In this document: positions 26,448 through 32,420 of the stretch, piece by piece
Layout: each line of letters starts with the position of its first letter
Numbering within the stretch: the first letter of the stretch is position 1
Assembly (NCBI RefSeq): GCF_036409155.1
Contig: NZ_JAZGLW010000002.1
Span: 620,001-684,000 of the forward strand
DNA: 64,000 nt
Direction: 5' to 3'
Source of the DNA: Mycobacterium sp. 050128
Lineage (GTDB): Bacteria; Actinomycetota; Actinomycetes; Mycobacteriales; Mycobacteriaceae
The notes under the pieces: model-generated
Databases searched by the model: none
Seen by the model: the letters and a program-made list of their open reading frames with translations, nothing else
What the model was told of the DNA's origin: nothing
Translations under genes and position numbers: made by a program

Positions 26448-27113
26448 CTAGGAGACGGAGGCTTCCGGCTCCATCGGCAGCGCGTGTGACGGCGGATCGG
26501 TGAGCCCGGAGCTGCCCAGGTCGTCGTGGGCGCTTCCGGCCGCCAGCAGGGCATAGACCAGTGCCGCGATGGCGGCGGGCCACAGCAGCGTGGTGGCGAT
26601 CTGTAGCGGGCCGGGCCCGAAGAACACCGGCGGCGCCTGGATGACGTAGGACACCGCGGGGCTGCCCACCACCGGCACCTTGTCGACATCGAGCGCGCCG
26701 TAGCGCAGCAGGGCCAGCACCGCCCCCACCGCCGATGCCACACCGGCCGCACCGACCATGCCGAGCGTCAGGGCGACGACCATGCCCGGGCCCCGCAGCC
26801 GGCGCCACTGCCACGCCAGCACCGGCGCCACCACCGCCAGCACCGTCAACAGACCCAGCATCAGGCACGGCACGTCGAAGAAGTGCTCAGACTCGGTGCC
26901 CAGATAGTCATGCACCCGCTCGCCGGAGCGGGTGATCGCCACCACCAAGTGAATCGGCGGGGCCATCCACGCCCACAGGCCGCCCACCAACACGCCGGTC
27001 GCCGAAAGCCCAAGGACCGCAACGATCATCGCGCGCACCCGCGAGGGCCCGGCGGGCTCCGCAGTCATCGGTACCGCGGGCTCGGGAGCCGCGGGCACCC
27101 AGGGTTCGGTCAC
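26448..27113 (-). CDS. DUF2567 family membrane protein (Rv1591-like)
   Basis: A 221-residue protein with about four membrane helices (about 30-52, 82-102, 110-135 and 175-197) after a short Pro/Ala-rich N-terminus. Function unknown. The start is a GTG at 27113 that overlaps the bsaP stop (GTGA), which argues strongly for this site over the in-frame ATG at 27212. Third gene downstream of bioB, so it may share the biotin transcript, although no biotin role is known to me. Confidence 0.85.
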
Positions 27114-27337
27114 CGCTGAGTCTCCAGATCCACCGAGTCCACCTCGCCGTGCCGCGAACAGCGCGCGCGCCAGCCGTCGGGGCGAACCTGGACGATCATC
27201 CGGCGCCCGCACTCGGCGCAGAAGCGCGGGGGCTCAAGGCCCAACTGGGCCGCGGTGGGCACCGTCGTACCCCCCAATTCCCCGGTATAGACGTTGTAGA
27301 CGCCGGCGCTGACCGGAGCGCCCAGATCTGGAACCAC
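27110..27337 (-). CDS. bsaP: Biotin synthase auxiliary protein BsaP (Rv1590-like)
   Basis: A 75-residue protein encoded 30 bp downstream of bioB. It has four possible metal or cluster ligands: C-A-E-C (about 40-43) and C-S-R-H (about 60-63). Small proteins at this site in mycobacteria have been described as auxiliary factors that support BioB iron-sulfur chemistry; I assign the name by position, size and the CxxC/CxxH pattern. The start is a GTG at 27337. It is translationally coupled to the DUF2567 gene. Confidence 0.8.
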
Positions 27338-28405: not shown

Positions 28406-28479
28406 CAAGTACTCCCCTGCATCTTTTGTCGCGTCCGCGTCAGCGGTCACATCCGCCACGACGTCGTGGCAGCCTGAAC

Positions 28480-28492
28480 GAAACGGTGTTCA
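28480..28492 (-). promoter_or_regulatory. BioQ-like operator upstream of bioB
   Basis: Read on the minus strand this is tgaac-acc-gtttc. The actinobacterial BioQ consensus, as I recall it, is TGAAC-N3-GTTAC, so 9 of 10 fixed positions match. It lies 75 bp upstream of the bioB start, a normal place for a repressor site. BioQ itself is not in the window. Confidence 0.55.
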
Positions 28493-28578
28493 ACGTAGGG
28501 TAACGGCCCGCGCGTGCAGGCCCGCGACGTGGGCGAGCCGGGCCGTGGATATGTCGACTTCAGGGGTATACGGGAACC

Positions 28579-28758
28579 ATGGCTGCTCAGCACGTCGAGT
28601 ACCTGGGACACCACATGCTTCTGTTGGCGCTGCCGGCCTTCTTGCCGGCCGTCATCGTCGTCGCCGTGATCCTCTACGCCGCGCTGAAGGACCGTCGCTC
28701 CGGACAAGCCGACGACGCCCACCAGCAAAGCGACACGCCGAGCGAAAAGCGTGATTGA
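28579..28758 (+). CDS. Small single-helix membrane protein, first gene of the cassette
   Basis: A 59-residue ORF starting at the ATG at 28579 and ending TGA at 28758. It has a His-containing N-terminus (M-A-A-Q-H-V-E-Y-L-G-H-H), one long hydrophobic helix (about 13-35, with L-L-L-A-L-P-A-F-L-P-A-V-I-V-V-A-V-I-L) and a charged, hydrophilic C-terminus, so an N-out/C-in orientation is likely. It precedes, on the same strand, the polytopic gene at 28872 by 113 bp. No family recognised. Codon use and the clean membrane pattern favour a real gene. Confidence 0.6.
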   Translation: MAAQHVEYLGHHMLLLALPAFLPAVIVVAVILYAALKDRRSGQADDAHQQSDTPSEKRD

Positions 28759-28871
28759 CACGCCCCGAATCGGGGCATTACACCTTGGATTGCGTGAACT
28801 TACCTGCGAGTAACAACTAGTCGTCGATTGGATCTCCCGGGACGTCCCGGCGCTGTGGGGAGGACATGACA

Positions 28872-30704
28872 ATGGTGCCAACTGGACTGCCGCTGCTCGC
28901 CGAGCCGTCGGCTCGCGGGGCCGGACTCAACCAGGTGATCGGCCTGTCGGTGGCCGCGATGGTCATCACGTTGGTCATGCTGTGGGTGGGCTACGCGCAC
29001 CGCACTCATCGCATCACGTGGCTGACACGCGTCGCCGACAAGCTGGGCGAGAAATTCCACCGCCCCAACTGGGTGGCGCTGCCGGTCCTGGTTTTCACGA
29101 CATCGATCATCTGCGCGCTGTTCGGCTTCATCTGGGACGTCAGCTGGCACATCGGTAACGGCCGCGATCCCGGGCCGTTGGCCAACCCGGCGCACTACTT
29201 CATCATCATCGGCCTGTTCGGGGTGTTCCTGGCCGGCATGATCGCGATCGTCATCCCGTACGACAAGCCCGGCCCGGCGGCGGTGCGCATCACCCGGACC
29301 TGGCACGCACCGGTCGGCGGCGTGCTGATGGCCGGCTGCGGGCTCTACGCGATGATCGGCTTCCCGCTCGATGACATCTGGCACCGCATCTTCGGTCAGG
29401 ATGTCACCCTTTGGGGCCCAACGCATTTGATGATGATCGGTGGTGCCTGCTTCTCGCTGTTCGCGGTGCTGATGCTGGAGCGCGAAGGCGAGGCCGCAGA
29501 GGGCGACAAGCTCACCCAAGGCGTATTCATCACCTTCCTGCGTTACCTGTCGTTCGGCGGAATGTTCATCGGTCTGTCGGTCTACCAAATCGAATACGAC
29601 TTCGGTGTCGAGCAATTCCGCCTGGTCCTGCAGCCGATGATGATCGCCTTTGCCTCGGCACTGGCGGCTGCCGCGGCCCGCATCACGATGGGCCGCGGTG
29701 CCGCGATCATCGCGGCGTTGTTCGCCATCGCGCTGCGCGGTGCGGTCGCGGTGCTGGTGGGCCCCATCCTGGGCGCACCGATCAACTGGTTCCCCCTGTA
29801 CCTGGGCCCCGCGCTGGTGGTTGAACTGGTGGCGCTGACCCCGTTGGTCAAGCGCCCCATCGCCTTTGGCGCCGTGTCTGGTCTGGGCGTGGCGACGGTG
29901 GGACTTTGGCTGGAATCGCTGTGGATCGCAGCGGTGTACCACTACCCATGGCCGGTCGGCATGTGGGGCGAGGCCCTGGCCATGGCGGTTCCGGTGGGCG
30001 TGATGTCCGGAATGTGCGGGGCGCTGTTCGGCATGGTACTGACGGGGCAGCGGCTGCCGCACCGCTGGATCGGCGTCTCGACGGTGGTGGCCACCGTCCT
30101 GGTGATCGGTGGCGCGGTGGCCAACGGCCTGCACATCGCGGTCCCCGAGCAGGGCAAGGCCGCCATCACACTGACCGAGCTGCCCAGCGCTCCGGGCCAG
30201 CGCATGGTGTCCGCCGACGTGCAACTGACGCCGCCCGATGTCGTTGGCTCGCAACCGGATTGGCTGACAATTCTGTCCTGGCAGGGCCGCATGGAAAACC
30301 AGCGCGGTCTGGTGATCGACCGGCTCGAGAAGGTCGGCCCGGGCCACTACCGGTCCACGCAGCCCGTCCCGGTCTGGGGATCGTGGAAGACGCTGCTGCG
30401 GATTCAGGACGGCTACACGATGACGGGCGTGCCGATCTACGAGCCGGCCGACGAGGCCATTCCCGCGGCCGAGGTTCCCGCGCTGTCCTCGATCGACCGG
30501 CCGTTCGTGCACGAGATCACCATCCTGCAGCGGGAGCGCGACCAGAACGCGCCCGGCTGGCTGTACAACGCCGGTTCGGTCGTCGTGCTGGTCCTGACGC
30601 TGATGGTCATCGCCGGTCTGACGTGGGGTGCGGGCCGCATCAACGATGCGCTGTCCGAACCGGAGCCGGTCGAGGTAAAACAACCACTACCGCGGGCAGC
30701 ATGA
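28872..30704 (+). CDS. Polytopic membrane protein with duplicated D-x2-W-H/P-x-H motif and FixH/YtkA-like C-terminal domain
   Basis: A 610-residue protein of unknown function. The first 400 or so residues hold about ten membrane helices. Two segments repeat the same pattern, D-x2-W-H-x3-G-x-D then P-x-H a few residues on (D-V-S-W-H...N-P-A-H and D-D-I-W-H...G-P-T-H), suggesting an internal duplication and metal ligands. Residues about 420-550 are predicted outside and resemble FixH/YtkA/CopC-type beta domains (G-H-Y-R-S-T...V-W-G-S-W-K), then a final helix near 575-595. The ATG at 28872 is favoured over 28866 because GGAGG at 28859-28863 is then 8 nt away. Four bases separate it from the cupredoxin gene. 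Confidence 0.8.
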   Translation: MVPTGLPLLAEPSARGAGLNQVIGLSVAAMVITLVMLWVGYAHRTHRITWLTRVADKLGEKFHRPNWVALPVLVFTTSIICALFGFIWDVSWHIGNGRDPGPLANPAHYFIIIGLFGVFLAGMIAIVIPYDKPGPAAVRITRTWHAPVGGVLMAGCGLYAMIGFPLDDIWHRIFGQDVTLWGPTHLMMIGGACFSLFAVLMLEREGEAAEGDKLTQGVFITFLRYLSFGGMFIGLSVYQIEYDFGVEQFRLVLQPMMIAFASALAAAAARITMGRGAAIIAALFAIALRGAVAVLVGPILGAPINWFPLYLGPALVVELVALTPLVKRPIAFGAVSGLGVATVGLWLESLWIAAVYHYPWPVGMWGEALAMAVPVGVMSGMCGALFGMVLTGQRLPHRWIGVSTVVATVLVIGGAVANGLHIAVPEQGKAAITLTELPSAPGQRMVSADVQLTPPDVVGSQPDWLTILSWQGRMENQRGLVIDRLEKVGPGHYRSTQPVPVWGSWKTLLRIQDGYTMTGVPIYEPADEAIPAAEVPALSSIDRPFVHEITILQRERDQNAPGWLYNAGSVVVLVLTLMVIAGLTWGAGRINDALSEPEPVEVKQPLPRAA

Positions 30705-30708
30705 GCCA

Positions 30709-31071
30709 ATGACGTTGCGCGGCATGGTCAATGCGGCGTGGGTGACGGTGCTGATGTGCGTCCTGATCGCCTGCGGCGGCCCTCAGGGCCAGCCCGCGCC
30801 CGGCGCCTTGGACATCGACGTGAAGATCTTCCAAAAGCAGGTGACCCCGACGAACGCGGTGCTGCAGGCGAAGGTCAAGCAGCCGATCGTCCTGCACGTC
30901 ACCAGCGACGCGACCGATGAACTGCACGTGCACTCGGTGCCCGATCACAAGTTTCAGGTCGCCGCCGAACCCAACCAGACCTTTCACTTCACCGTCGACG
31001 TCCCCGGCAACGTTGAAGTGGAACTCCACCAGCTGGACCGGACGATAGCGACGATTCAAGTCGGACCGTGA
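30709..31071 (+). CDS. Cupredoxin-like lipoprotein
   Basis: A 120-residue lipoprotein. The signal peptide ends in L-I-A-C (lipobox, cysteine at about 23). The mature part (about 35-120) is a short all-beta sequence of cupredoxin type, similar in size to EfeO cupredoxin domains, with histidines in E-L-H-V-H-S-V-P-D-H and V-E-L-H-Q. The canonical blue-copper cysteine and methionine are missing, so a type-1 copper site is unlikely; another metal mode or a structural role is possible. It overlaps the next gene by 4 bp (GTGA). Confidence 0.8.
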   Translation: MTLRGMVNAAWVTVLMCVLIACGGPQGQPAPGALDIDVKIFQKQVTPTNAVLQAKVKQPIVLHVTSDATDELHVHSVPDHKFQVAAEPNQTFHFTVDVPGNVEVELHQLDRTIATIQVGP

Positions 31072-32420
31072 CGCAGCTGCTGGCGCACGGTCTGGGCGGA
31101 TCGAGCGATCTCCCGGTCCCCTACGCGTACGCGATGGTCGGCGCCGCATGGGCGCTGACGTTCACGTTCGCCTTGGTCGCCTTCGCTTGGCGGCGCCCGC
31201 GTTTCGACCCGGAGGCGCCCGGTCATCGGCTGCCCGCATGGGTGACCACGCTGGTCGACGCCCGCGCGACGCGCTGGACGGTTGCGGGTGTGGCGCTGGC
31301 CTTCGCGGTGTGGGTGGTGCTCGCCGGGGTCTTTGGCCCACAGACACAAGCCAACGGCCTACTCGGGGCGTTCTACGTGCTGCTGTGGGTCGGGCTGGTC
31401 CCGCTGTCGCTGGCGTTCGGGCCGGTATGGCGGGTCATCTCCCCGGTGCGCACGGTGTACCTGCTGCTGCGGCGCGCCGTGCCCGAGCGGCTGAGCCGGC
31501 CGCGACTCTGCTACCCCGAGCGCTGGGGCTACCGTCCGGCCGCGGCCGGACTGTTCGCCTTCGTGTGGCTGGAGTTGGCGAGCCCGAACTCGGCGTCGCC
31601 GGCGTGGGTGCGCGGTTGGCTGCTGGTCTACGCGGTGGTGATGCTGGTCGGGTCGTGGCTGTGCGGGCAACGCTGGCTGGCCAGGGTCGACCCGTTCGGC
31701 GTGTACAGCATGGCGGTGTCGCGACTGTCTCCGTTTTGGCGCTCGAAAGCCAACGGGCAGATCGTCATCGGCAATCCGTTCGACCATCTGCCGTCGCTGC
31801 CGGTGCGGCCCGGTGTGGTCGCGATGCTGGCGGTGCTGCTCGGGTCGACGGCGTTCGACAGCTACTCGTCGTCGCCGACCTGGCGCAACTTCGCCGATCG
31901 GCTTTCGCGTCTGGCGCACGACGTGCCGCCGGCATTGATGTCGTCGGCGCTGCGGACCGTCGGGCTGGTGATCTTCGTTTCGGTTGTCGCGCTGACCTTT
32001 TCGCTTGCAGCCCGGGCAACCGGCGGGGTGGACCGCGAGCAGCGACGCGCCCTGCCCGGTCAGCTGGCACACTCGCTGATCCCGATTGTGGTCGGCTACA
32101 TCTTCGCGCACTACCTGTCCTATCTGGTGGAGCGCGGACAGCAGGCCGTGATCGCGCTGGCCGATCCGTTCGGGCACGGCTGGAACCTGTTGGGGCTGGC
32201 CCATTTACGGGTGGCCTATGTGTTGTCCCAGCATCCGCCGTTGCTGGCCGGCATCAAGGTGGCCTGCGTGGTGACCGGGCACATCGTCGCGGTGATCGCG
32301 GCGCACGACCGGGCGTTGCGGCTGTTGCCGGCCGGCCATCAGCTCACCGGGCAGCTCACCATGATGCTGGTCATGGTCGGCTATACGTTCACCGGCCTGT
32401 ACCTGCTCTTCGGCGGCTAG
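31068..32420 (+). CDS. Polytopic membrane protein (database label often fenitrothion hydrolase), function unknown
   Basis: A 450-residue protein with about eleven hydrophobic helices. The sequence contains repeated W-R-x-I-S-P-V-R, V-D-P-F-G-V-Y and G-N-P-F-D-H stretches and histidines in A-H-Y-L-S-Y-L, F-G-H-G-W and T-G-H-I-V-A-V-I-A-A-H. I recall such actinobacterial proteins being labelled fenitrothion hydrolase in databases, a transferred name I would not trust for function. The GTG at 31068 overlaps the lipoprotein stop. The gene converges on the 2'-5' ligase-like gene with a 4-bp overlap. Confidence 0.8.
   Translation: MTQLLAHGLGGSSDLPVPYAYAMVGAAWALTFTFALVAFAWRRPRFDPEAPGHRLPAWVTTLVDARATRWTVAGVALAFAVWVVLAGVFGPQTQANGLLGAFYVLLWVGLVPLSLAFGPVWRVISPVRTVYLLLRRAVPERLSRPRLCYPERWGYRPAAAGLFAFVWLELASPNSASPAWVRGWLLVYAVVMLVGSWLCGQRWLARVDPFGVYSMAVSRLSPFWRSKANGQIVIGNPFDHLPSLPVRPGVVAMLAVLLGSTAFDSYSSSPTWRNFADRLSRLAHDVPPALMSSALRTVGLVIFVSVVALTFSLAARATGGVDREQRRALPGQLAHSLIPIVVGYIFAHYLSYLVERGQQAVIALADPFGHGWNLLGLAHLRVAYVLSQHPPLLAGIKVACVVTGHIVAVIAAHDRALRLLPAGHQLTGQLTMMLVMVGYTFTGLYLLFGG

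Follow-up and report, generated by a model that had tools for sequence, protein, structure and literature searches.

What does a compact set of four genes for membrane and cupredoxin-like proteins do in the middle of a mycobacterial biotin locus? The set lies in a stretch of 64,000 nucleotides from Mycobacterium sp. 050128 (contig NZ_JAZGLW010000002.1, positions 620,001 to 684,000), hereafter the window, to which plain positions refer. It runs on the plus strand between the divergent bioB gene and a convergent gene of the 2'-5' RNA ligase type. A first-pass annotation had described a four-gene membrane/cupredoxin set on one strand, and our calls of open reading frames (ORFs) confirmed this layout:

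28579..28758, plus strand: ssp59, an ORF of 59 aa with one hydrophobic helix (by reading), the first gene of the cassette
28866..30704, plus strand: M612, an ORF for a polytopic protein of 612 aa from 28866 or 610 aa from 28872
30709..31071, plus strand: cup120, for a lipoprotein-like (LIAC lipobox, by reading), cupredoxin-like protein
31068..32420, plus strand: M450, an ORF for a polytopic membrane protein

We propose, with moderate confidence, that M612 is a member of an undescribed family of PmoC/AmoC relatives and that the cassette most likely encodes a copper-dependent membrane oxidoreductase, similar to a copper membrane monooxygenase (CuMMO) lacking PmoB. CuMMOs control methane and ammonia oxidation. 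The relation of M612 to PmoC was absent from the first-pass annotation and is added by the present analysis.

The PmoC-like core of M612

A Pfam-A scan of the four cassette proteins returned no family at E ≤ 0.1, and an NCBIfam scan gave only weak matches, namely of ssp59 to CoxB (E 0.036) and of cup120 to PsbQ (E 0.011); M612 had no family in either collection. We therefore describe M612 by its AlphaFold2 (AF2) model, which reached a predicted local distance difference test score (pLDDT) of 92.7 and a predicted template modelling score (pTM) of 0.91, and by profile comparison. With residues counted from the start at 28872, its parts are as follows:

29004..29516, plus strand: residues 45-215, the PmoC/AmoC-like core, from hhalign, shuffles and reciprocal ranking with hidden Markov models (HMMs)
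29136..29195, plus strand: site 1, D89-x3-H93-x4-R98-D99-x6-P106-x-H108, counterpart of the PmoC CuC ligands D156/H160/H173 and of R165
29370..29426, plus strand: site 2, D167-x3-H171-x13-H185 (P183-x-H185), counterpart of the PmoC CuD ligands N227/H231/H245
29496..30131, plus strand: residues 209-420, six further membrane helices, apparently PmoA-like in fold
30135..30506, plus strand: residues 422-545, a FixH/YtkA-like beta domain, presumably extracytoplasmic
30555..30653, plus strand: residues 562-594, the last membrane helix, within the range of the PmoA match (AF2 model and fold search)

The likeness of M612 to the PmoC copper ligands was noted before the fold searches and then compared with a published account, which gives CuC as Asp156, His160 and His173 and CuD as Asn227, His231 and His245, with Arg165 close by (PMC12576850). 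This numbering maps correctly onto the PmoC chain sequence with an offset of 29. As placed by hhalign, the CuC set is present in M612 as D89/H93/H108, and both histidines of the CuD set are found at the same spacing, while its Asn is replaced by Asp167. M612 thus has in common with PmoC/AmoC (PF04896) the CuC pattern D-x3-H-...-H with an Arg five residues past the first His, the pattern [N/D]-x3-H-x13-H with P-x-H, and the surrounding membrane helices; the two sites also follow each other in the same order and at nearly the same spacing. It differs in that the site-1 loop is two residues longer and the CuD Asn is an Asp, and in that PmoC/AmoC has about 250 aa, whereas the sequence of M612, about 610 aa long, also covers another membrane half and an outer domain.

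These residues are strongly conserved. In 20 aligned M612 sequences D89, H93, R98, D99, P106 and H108 as well as D167, H171, D177, P183 and H185 were invariant; among 59 more diverse members D167, H171 and H185 remained invariant, and D89, H93, R98 and H108 were kept in at least 90%. Divergent relatives (L113, L115, L116 and others; L and G numbers denote our loci and genomes) retained both motifs with small changes. The L116 protein bridges to the rest of the superfamily, matching proteins of G177, G272, G226 and G300 over residues ~4-400 (E 1.5e-18 to 7.6e-20) that the M612 profile also finds, and its motif DDAWHTDIGRDTALIPPH aligns without gaps to DGAWHQTAVRDTALTPAH of an actinobacterial PmoC (BLASTP E 3e-5 in a single comparison).

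To compare whole profiles, we used reference alignments drawn from CuMMO loci (PmoC 9 rows, PmoA 6, PmoB 4); in a tblastn search, 10 plasmid records had carried AmoC, including 4 from actinobacteria. The alignment of complete M612 met PmoC on site 1 with P 0.0013 in hhalign, against 0.12-0.35 for four other pairs. Once the divergent relatives were added, residues 45-215 met PmoC with P 5.8e-4 across 116 columns, in which the two ligand sets lined up, while seven other pairs (N-half or C-half with PmoC, PmoA, PmoB or M450) stayed at P ≥ 0.067. With the chain 7ev9_C added, the score was 30.2 (P 0.001), the confident part ending just past H171; the highest scores in shuffle controls were 25.0 (300 column shuffles) and 24.2 (300 reversed-block shuffles).

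For ranking by HMM, the fetched loci supplied a set of 2606 distinct proteins. The PmoC HMM placed the 9 true PmoC first and ten M612-superfamily proteins at ranks 10-19 (E 2.9e-5 for the first and 0.02 to 0.9 for the rest); no other protein came before rank 20. Conversely, the superfamily HMM had PmoC as its best four hits beyond the family itself (E 4.5e-4 to 7.4e-3), and HMMER once more aligned both sites of the L116 protein in the same register as in PmoC. A two-site pattern, written after the fact, occurred in 112 of 127 superfamily proteins, in 9/10 PmoC-HMM hits (one of the ten being the L116 protein) and in 1/2469 others; with P-x-H required at both sites, the counts were 109/127, 8/10 and 0/2469. 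Together, these results give strong support to homology between the N-terminal half of M612 and PmoC, of which we are highly confident.

The remainder of M612 is less readily assigned. The PmoA HMM had superfamily proteins as its first three non-PmoA hits (best E 0.013), located behind the PmoC-like part, and a PmoA-like fold within M612 is suggested only by the modelled structure; in comparison with PmoA/AmoA (PF02461) there is no convincing sequence similarity, and the beta domain of M612 is inserted before the last helix. That domain scored below the Pfam cut-offs of FixH/CcoH (PF05751) and YtkA/CrdA-like (PF13115): the window M612 had no family, and FixH was listed for 3/59 and YtkA for 1/59 members (best E 0.063 and 0.053). 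It also differs from these families in being part of a large polytopic protein.

Two observations concern the surroundings of divergent relatives. At L115:6129-9554 the M612 relative stands in a gene run with two YtkA-domain genes (PF13115 E 2.8e-12 and 2.6e-6), and at L116:7075-8465 DUF305 and DUF3105 genes lie near the bridging protein.

Linkage of the cassette and its partners

We next consider how far the four genes belong together. The search for related loci gave 173 matching stretches, the best 80 of which were used; 5 of these 80 end too soon after M612, so that 75 were testable for downstream genes. In 73/75 loci cup120 and M450 follow directly 3' of M612 on the same strand, the exceptions being L085 and L093, where M612 stands alone. 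The small ssp59 gene lies 5' of M612 in 58/75 loci and directly 3' of it in 10/75. The cassette genes are under purifying selection, with a ratio of nonsynonymous to synonymous substitution rates (dN/dS) of 0.41-0.56 for ssp59. The nearest named match of M612 among the matches listed, from which near-identical records may have been omitted, is that of M. ahvazicum (93% identity).

The cassette sits at the biotin locus in 61 of 74 testable loci, with an M612 identity to the query there of at least 71% and usually with ssp59 as the leading gene. A more distant set, in which M612 is about 61-69% identical and which includes M. chubuense, M. moriokaense and M. deserti, carries it away from the biotin locus, beside pncA-like, enoyl-CoA hydratase-like and glgX-like genes in the loci read (L096, L101, L122), and mostly has ssp59 between M612 and cup120. 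The small gene travels with the cassette even where gene order differs, and the four genes form one conserved unit in mycobacteria. The first-pass claim that the cassette splits the biotin locus thus describes the 61 loci and not the distant set; because the cassettes of that set sit elsewhere, it covers one of at least two addresses.

Partial sets were also found. Beside its full cassette, genome G011 has a further ssp59-cup120-M450 set that lacks M612 (L107), G002, a single contig with no M612 match, has cup120-M450 alone (L109), and L117 shows the ssp59-cup120-M450 trio too, at a point where the contig ends. G002 (4.0 Mb, same genus) further contains short C-terminal pieces of M450 at C1:3658055-3658228 and 3779798-3779935 (69% and 60% identity), possibly remnants or partial duplicates. 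In L101, a gene resembling zinc-dependent alcohol dehydrogenase (by reading) lies at 860-2038, two genes 5' of M612.

In wider sets, M612 was present in 16 of 41 relatives (13 of the 25 in the genus, some genomes being incomplete) and M450 in 20. Among 396 actinobacterial genomes M612 occurred in 43 and M450 in 78, and the two co-occurred in 23 against 8.5 expected, a figure that ignores relatedness. The adjacency noted at first pass, which is borne out in mycobacteria, breaks down beyond them and their near kin: there the two genes are mostly apart, with M450 nearby in 4/20 M612 regions fetched (one being that of G250). In distant actinobacteria, M612-type genes adjoin a MerR-like regulator with a common C-terminal domain, read from sequence and clustered:

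L105:8790-9554; L207:6873-7694; L210:6538-7407: MerR-like regulators beside M612-type genes

Partner genes were found at genuine CuMMO operons as well. On all four actinobacterial AmoC plasmids a cup120-M450 pair lies near hmoCAB, at about 5 kb in Mycolicibacterium chubuense NBB4, about 9 kb in Rhodococcus ZPP and about 8 kb in WAY2; in M. dioxanotrophicus PH-06 M450 ends about 1 kb before hmoC. The plasmid partners were confirmed as cup120 by HMM (E 7e-23 to 7e-46). In G024, a genome of the window's own genus, PmoC, PmoA, PmoB, cup120 and M450 were all HMM-confirmed within 9.1 kb:

L110:12-9043: hmoCAB and cup120-M450 of G024, the pair about 4.5 kb downstream; PmoC is truncated, as the fetched open frame ends within it

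The hmoCAB loci therefore have in common with the cassette a cup120-M450 pair, within about 10 kb, and differ from it in having three separate CuMMO genes and no M612 match on those plasmids. The linkage in NBB4 is ambiguous, since the pair sits between hmoCAB and the smo cluster (PMC8784404); for ZPP, WAY2 and PH-06, the annotation of the stretches read near the pair names no gene of smo type. The six non-actinobacterial AmoC plasmids were not among the 20 M450 matches listed, with 44 further records outside that list.

Both partners have conserved histidines. Among the rows listed, cup120 has the conserved motifs DELHVH and ELH, and H-x-H is kept in the full-length rows, its second His being Glu in some distant members. 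Like Cupredoxin_1 (PF13473), the mycobacterial rows have H-x-H and a later His; unlike it, cup120 has no Cys in the conserved motifs seen. Although cup120 itself has no Pfam family, its relatives matched PF13473 with E 3e-5 to 0.065 (13.7-24.4 bits, 4/4 tested below the 27-bit cut-off). The cupredoxin and FixH/YtkA readings of the first pass are plausible, at scores below the curated cut-offs.

M450 gave an AF2 model with pLDDT 93.3 and pTM 0.92 and no fold match in the PDB at E ≤ 0.001. Its H7, H348, H405, H413 and D264 were invariant in 68/68 sequences, including those of Sulfitobacter (a proteobacterium) and two haloarchaea. Given these invariant membrane histidines and its recurrence beside true CuMMO operons, M450 can be put to the test as a candidate partner that supplies those enzymes with copper or electrons. 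Its homologues on haloarchaeal plasmids (L277, L278) lie near DyP-type peroxidase genes, a neighbourhood reminiscent of EfeUOB.

Catalysis or copper handling

In PmoC, CuD is the proposed active site. We suggest that the N-terminal core of M612 would bind two coppers at helix ends, through D89/H93/H108 and D167/H171/H185, in the manner of CuC and CuD, and that a PmoA-like membrane bundle and then the FixH/YtkA-like outer domain would lie behind this core. Site 2 would be the reactive site, taking O2 and probably an apolar substrate; cup120 and M450, companions of true CuMMOs too, would supply copper or electrons, and ssp59 would act as a small accessory helix. Copper binding by M612 is predicted with good confidence, and catalysis by the cassette tentatively, its prospects being slightly below even; the single membrane complex proposed at first pass, the substrate and the roles of M450 and ssp59 are likewise predictions.

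Several results weigh against an oxidoreductase of the CuMMO type. The hhalign probabilities for M612 and PmoC were just 18-33%, the remaining five of nine PmoC ranked only 133rd to 532nd with the superfamily HMM, and the Pfam AmoC family PF04896 listed 0/59 M612 members at E ≤ 1. The CuD Asn of PmoC is Asp in M612. A Foldseek search with the M612 model gave no PDB match at E ≤ 0.001, no PmoC chain was among the fold matches listed, and the C-half was near noise with PmoA in hhalign (P 0.11-0.25). Neither PmoA (PF02461) nor PmoB (PF04744) was found in the window genome G000 by searches that were positive in G081 and G068, and cup120 shows no relation to PmoB. The PF04896 search likewise found no match in G000, and true AmoC in 3/246 actinobacterial genomes; M450 is missing from two of these three (G053, G081) and lies on another contig in G068. 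M450 also occurs far outside carriers of a CuMMO or of M612, and the window cassette is flanked by biotin genes with no substrate pathway. Because M612 is unrecognised by Pfam AmoC and its genome has no Pfam-recognisable PmoA or PmoB, we do not class it among the CuMMO subunits; it is related to PmoC and perhaps works like one.

The chief alternative is copper handling without catalysis, in which M612 would store, sense or move copper, cup120 would carry it, and M450 would transport or insert the metal. We regard this as possible, if on the unlikely side. It fits the wider occurrence of M450 than of M612 (78 and 43 of 396 genomes), the lack of a linked substrate pathway, the YtkA-domain genes around the L115 relative and a handful of neighbours: M612 adjoins a gene annotated CopC on the JOB5 plasmid (M450 being about 8 kb away), in Sulfitobacter M450 adjoins the gene of a PCu(A)C copper chaperone, and in Halobaculum it is close to genes for multicopper oxidase, plastocyanin and metal transporters. 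Such handling would sit less well with the fact that the two PmoC ligand sets, one of them matching the proposed active site, are largely retained, or with the recurrence of the cup120-M450 pair at real monooxygenase operons, and the second, PmoA-like half of M612 would presumably be superfluous in a store. The copper-related role suggested at first pass is much better supported than before, by the two PmoC-type ligand sets of M612, the H-x-H of cup120, the link of the pair to CuMMO operons and the single cases of copper-gene neighbours just given.

An oxidase maturation factor, in which the FixH/CcoH-like outer domain and the cupredoxin would insert copper into a haem-copper oxidase, appears improbable: no oxidase gene was seen among the neighbour sequences read (most of them unannotated), the patchy presence in the genus (13/25 genomes, some incomplete) is unlike that of an essential oxidase, and the PmoC ligand sets would go unexplained. 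Least probable of all is that M612, as a metal or haem membrane protein of separate origin, matches PmoC by a coincidence of short motifs, as the low hhalign probabilities, the weak alignment outside the two sites and the lack of PmoC chains among the listed fold matches could suggest, since the Arg and the P-x-H positions recur together with two ligand sets in the same order at near-equal spacing, the reciprocal ranking, the shuffle controls and the HMMER register of the bridging protein agree, and the partner genes are linked to CuMMO operons.

Returning to the oxidoreductase, its boldest form would make M612 a natural single-chain CuMMO of PmoC-PmoA type without PmoB, acting on a membrane or environmental apolar substrate in ordinary mycobacteria and served by a cupredoxin and M450 that also serve hmoCAB. 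This we offer as speculation, with the likelihood against it; if it were true, methane and ammonia monooxygenases would represent a single specialised offshoot within a much wider and older family of copper membrane proteins. A family with both copper sites, spread across Actinomycetota and present in many mycobacteria, could serve as an outgroup for the origin of CuMMOs, possibly as a simpler system in which to study the requirements of CuC and CuD, and as a testable copper-dependent function in mycobacteria. We found no title or opening abstract describing M612, M450 or a PmoC relative outside xmoCAB in the literature covered, which excludes most subscription journals; as this coverage is partial, the absence is no proof of novelty.

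Neighbouring features of the window

Scans of the 64-kb window for tRNA genes and for Rfam families (gathering scores) found nothing. Shortly 5' of the ssp59 start lies a short element, exact in 8/15 biotin-locus rows listed, that may be the -10 region of ssp59:

28563..28571, plus strand: GGGGTATAC element

Just 5' of bioB, at 28475-28492, stands an inverted repeat, TGAAC-N8-GTTCA, which among the rows listed is exact in the window and L025 and has one-base variants in L026, L027 and L032. It resembles a BioQ-type operator and is therefore probably part of bioB control, not of the cassette. At the other end, the 3' ends of M450 and the convergent ligase-type gene share 4 bp (32417-32420). A block of ~3.6-3.8 kb separates these two genes in L030, L034, L035, L056, L061, L072 and L091, and inserts of other sizes do so in further loci. 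Immediately 3' of bioB, at 27110-27337 on the minus strand, the auxiliary protein of biotin synthase, BsaP, is encoded (NF052237, E 2.5e-24).
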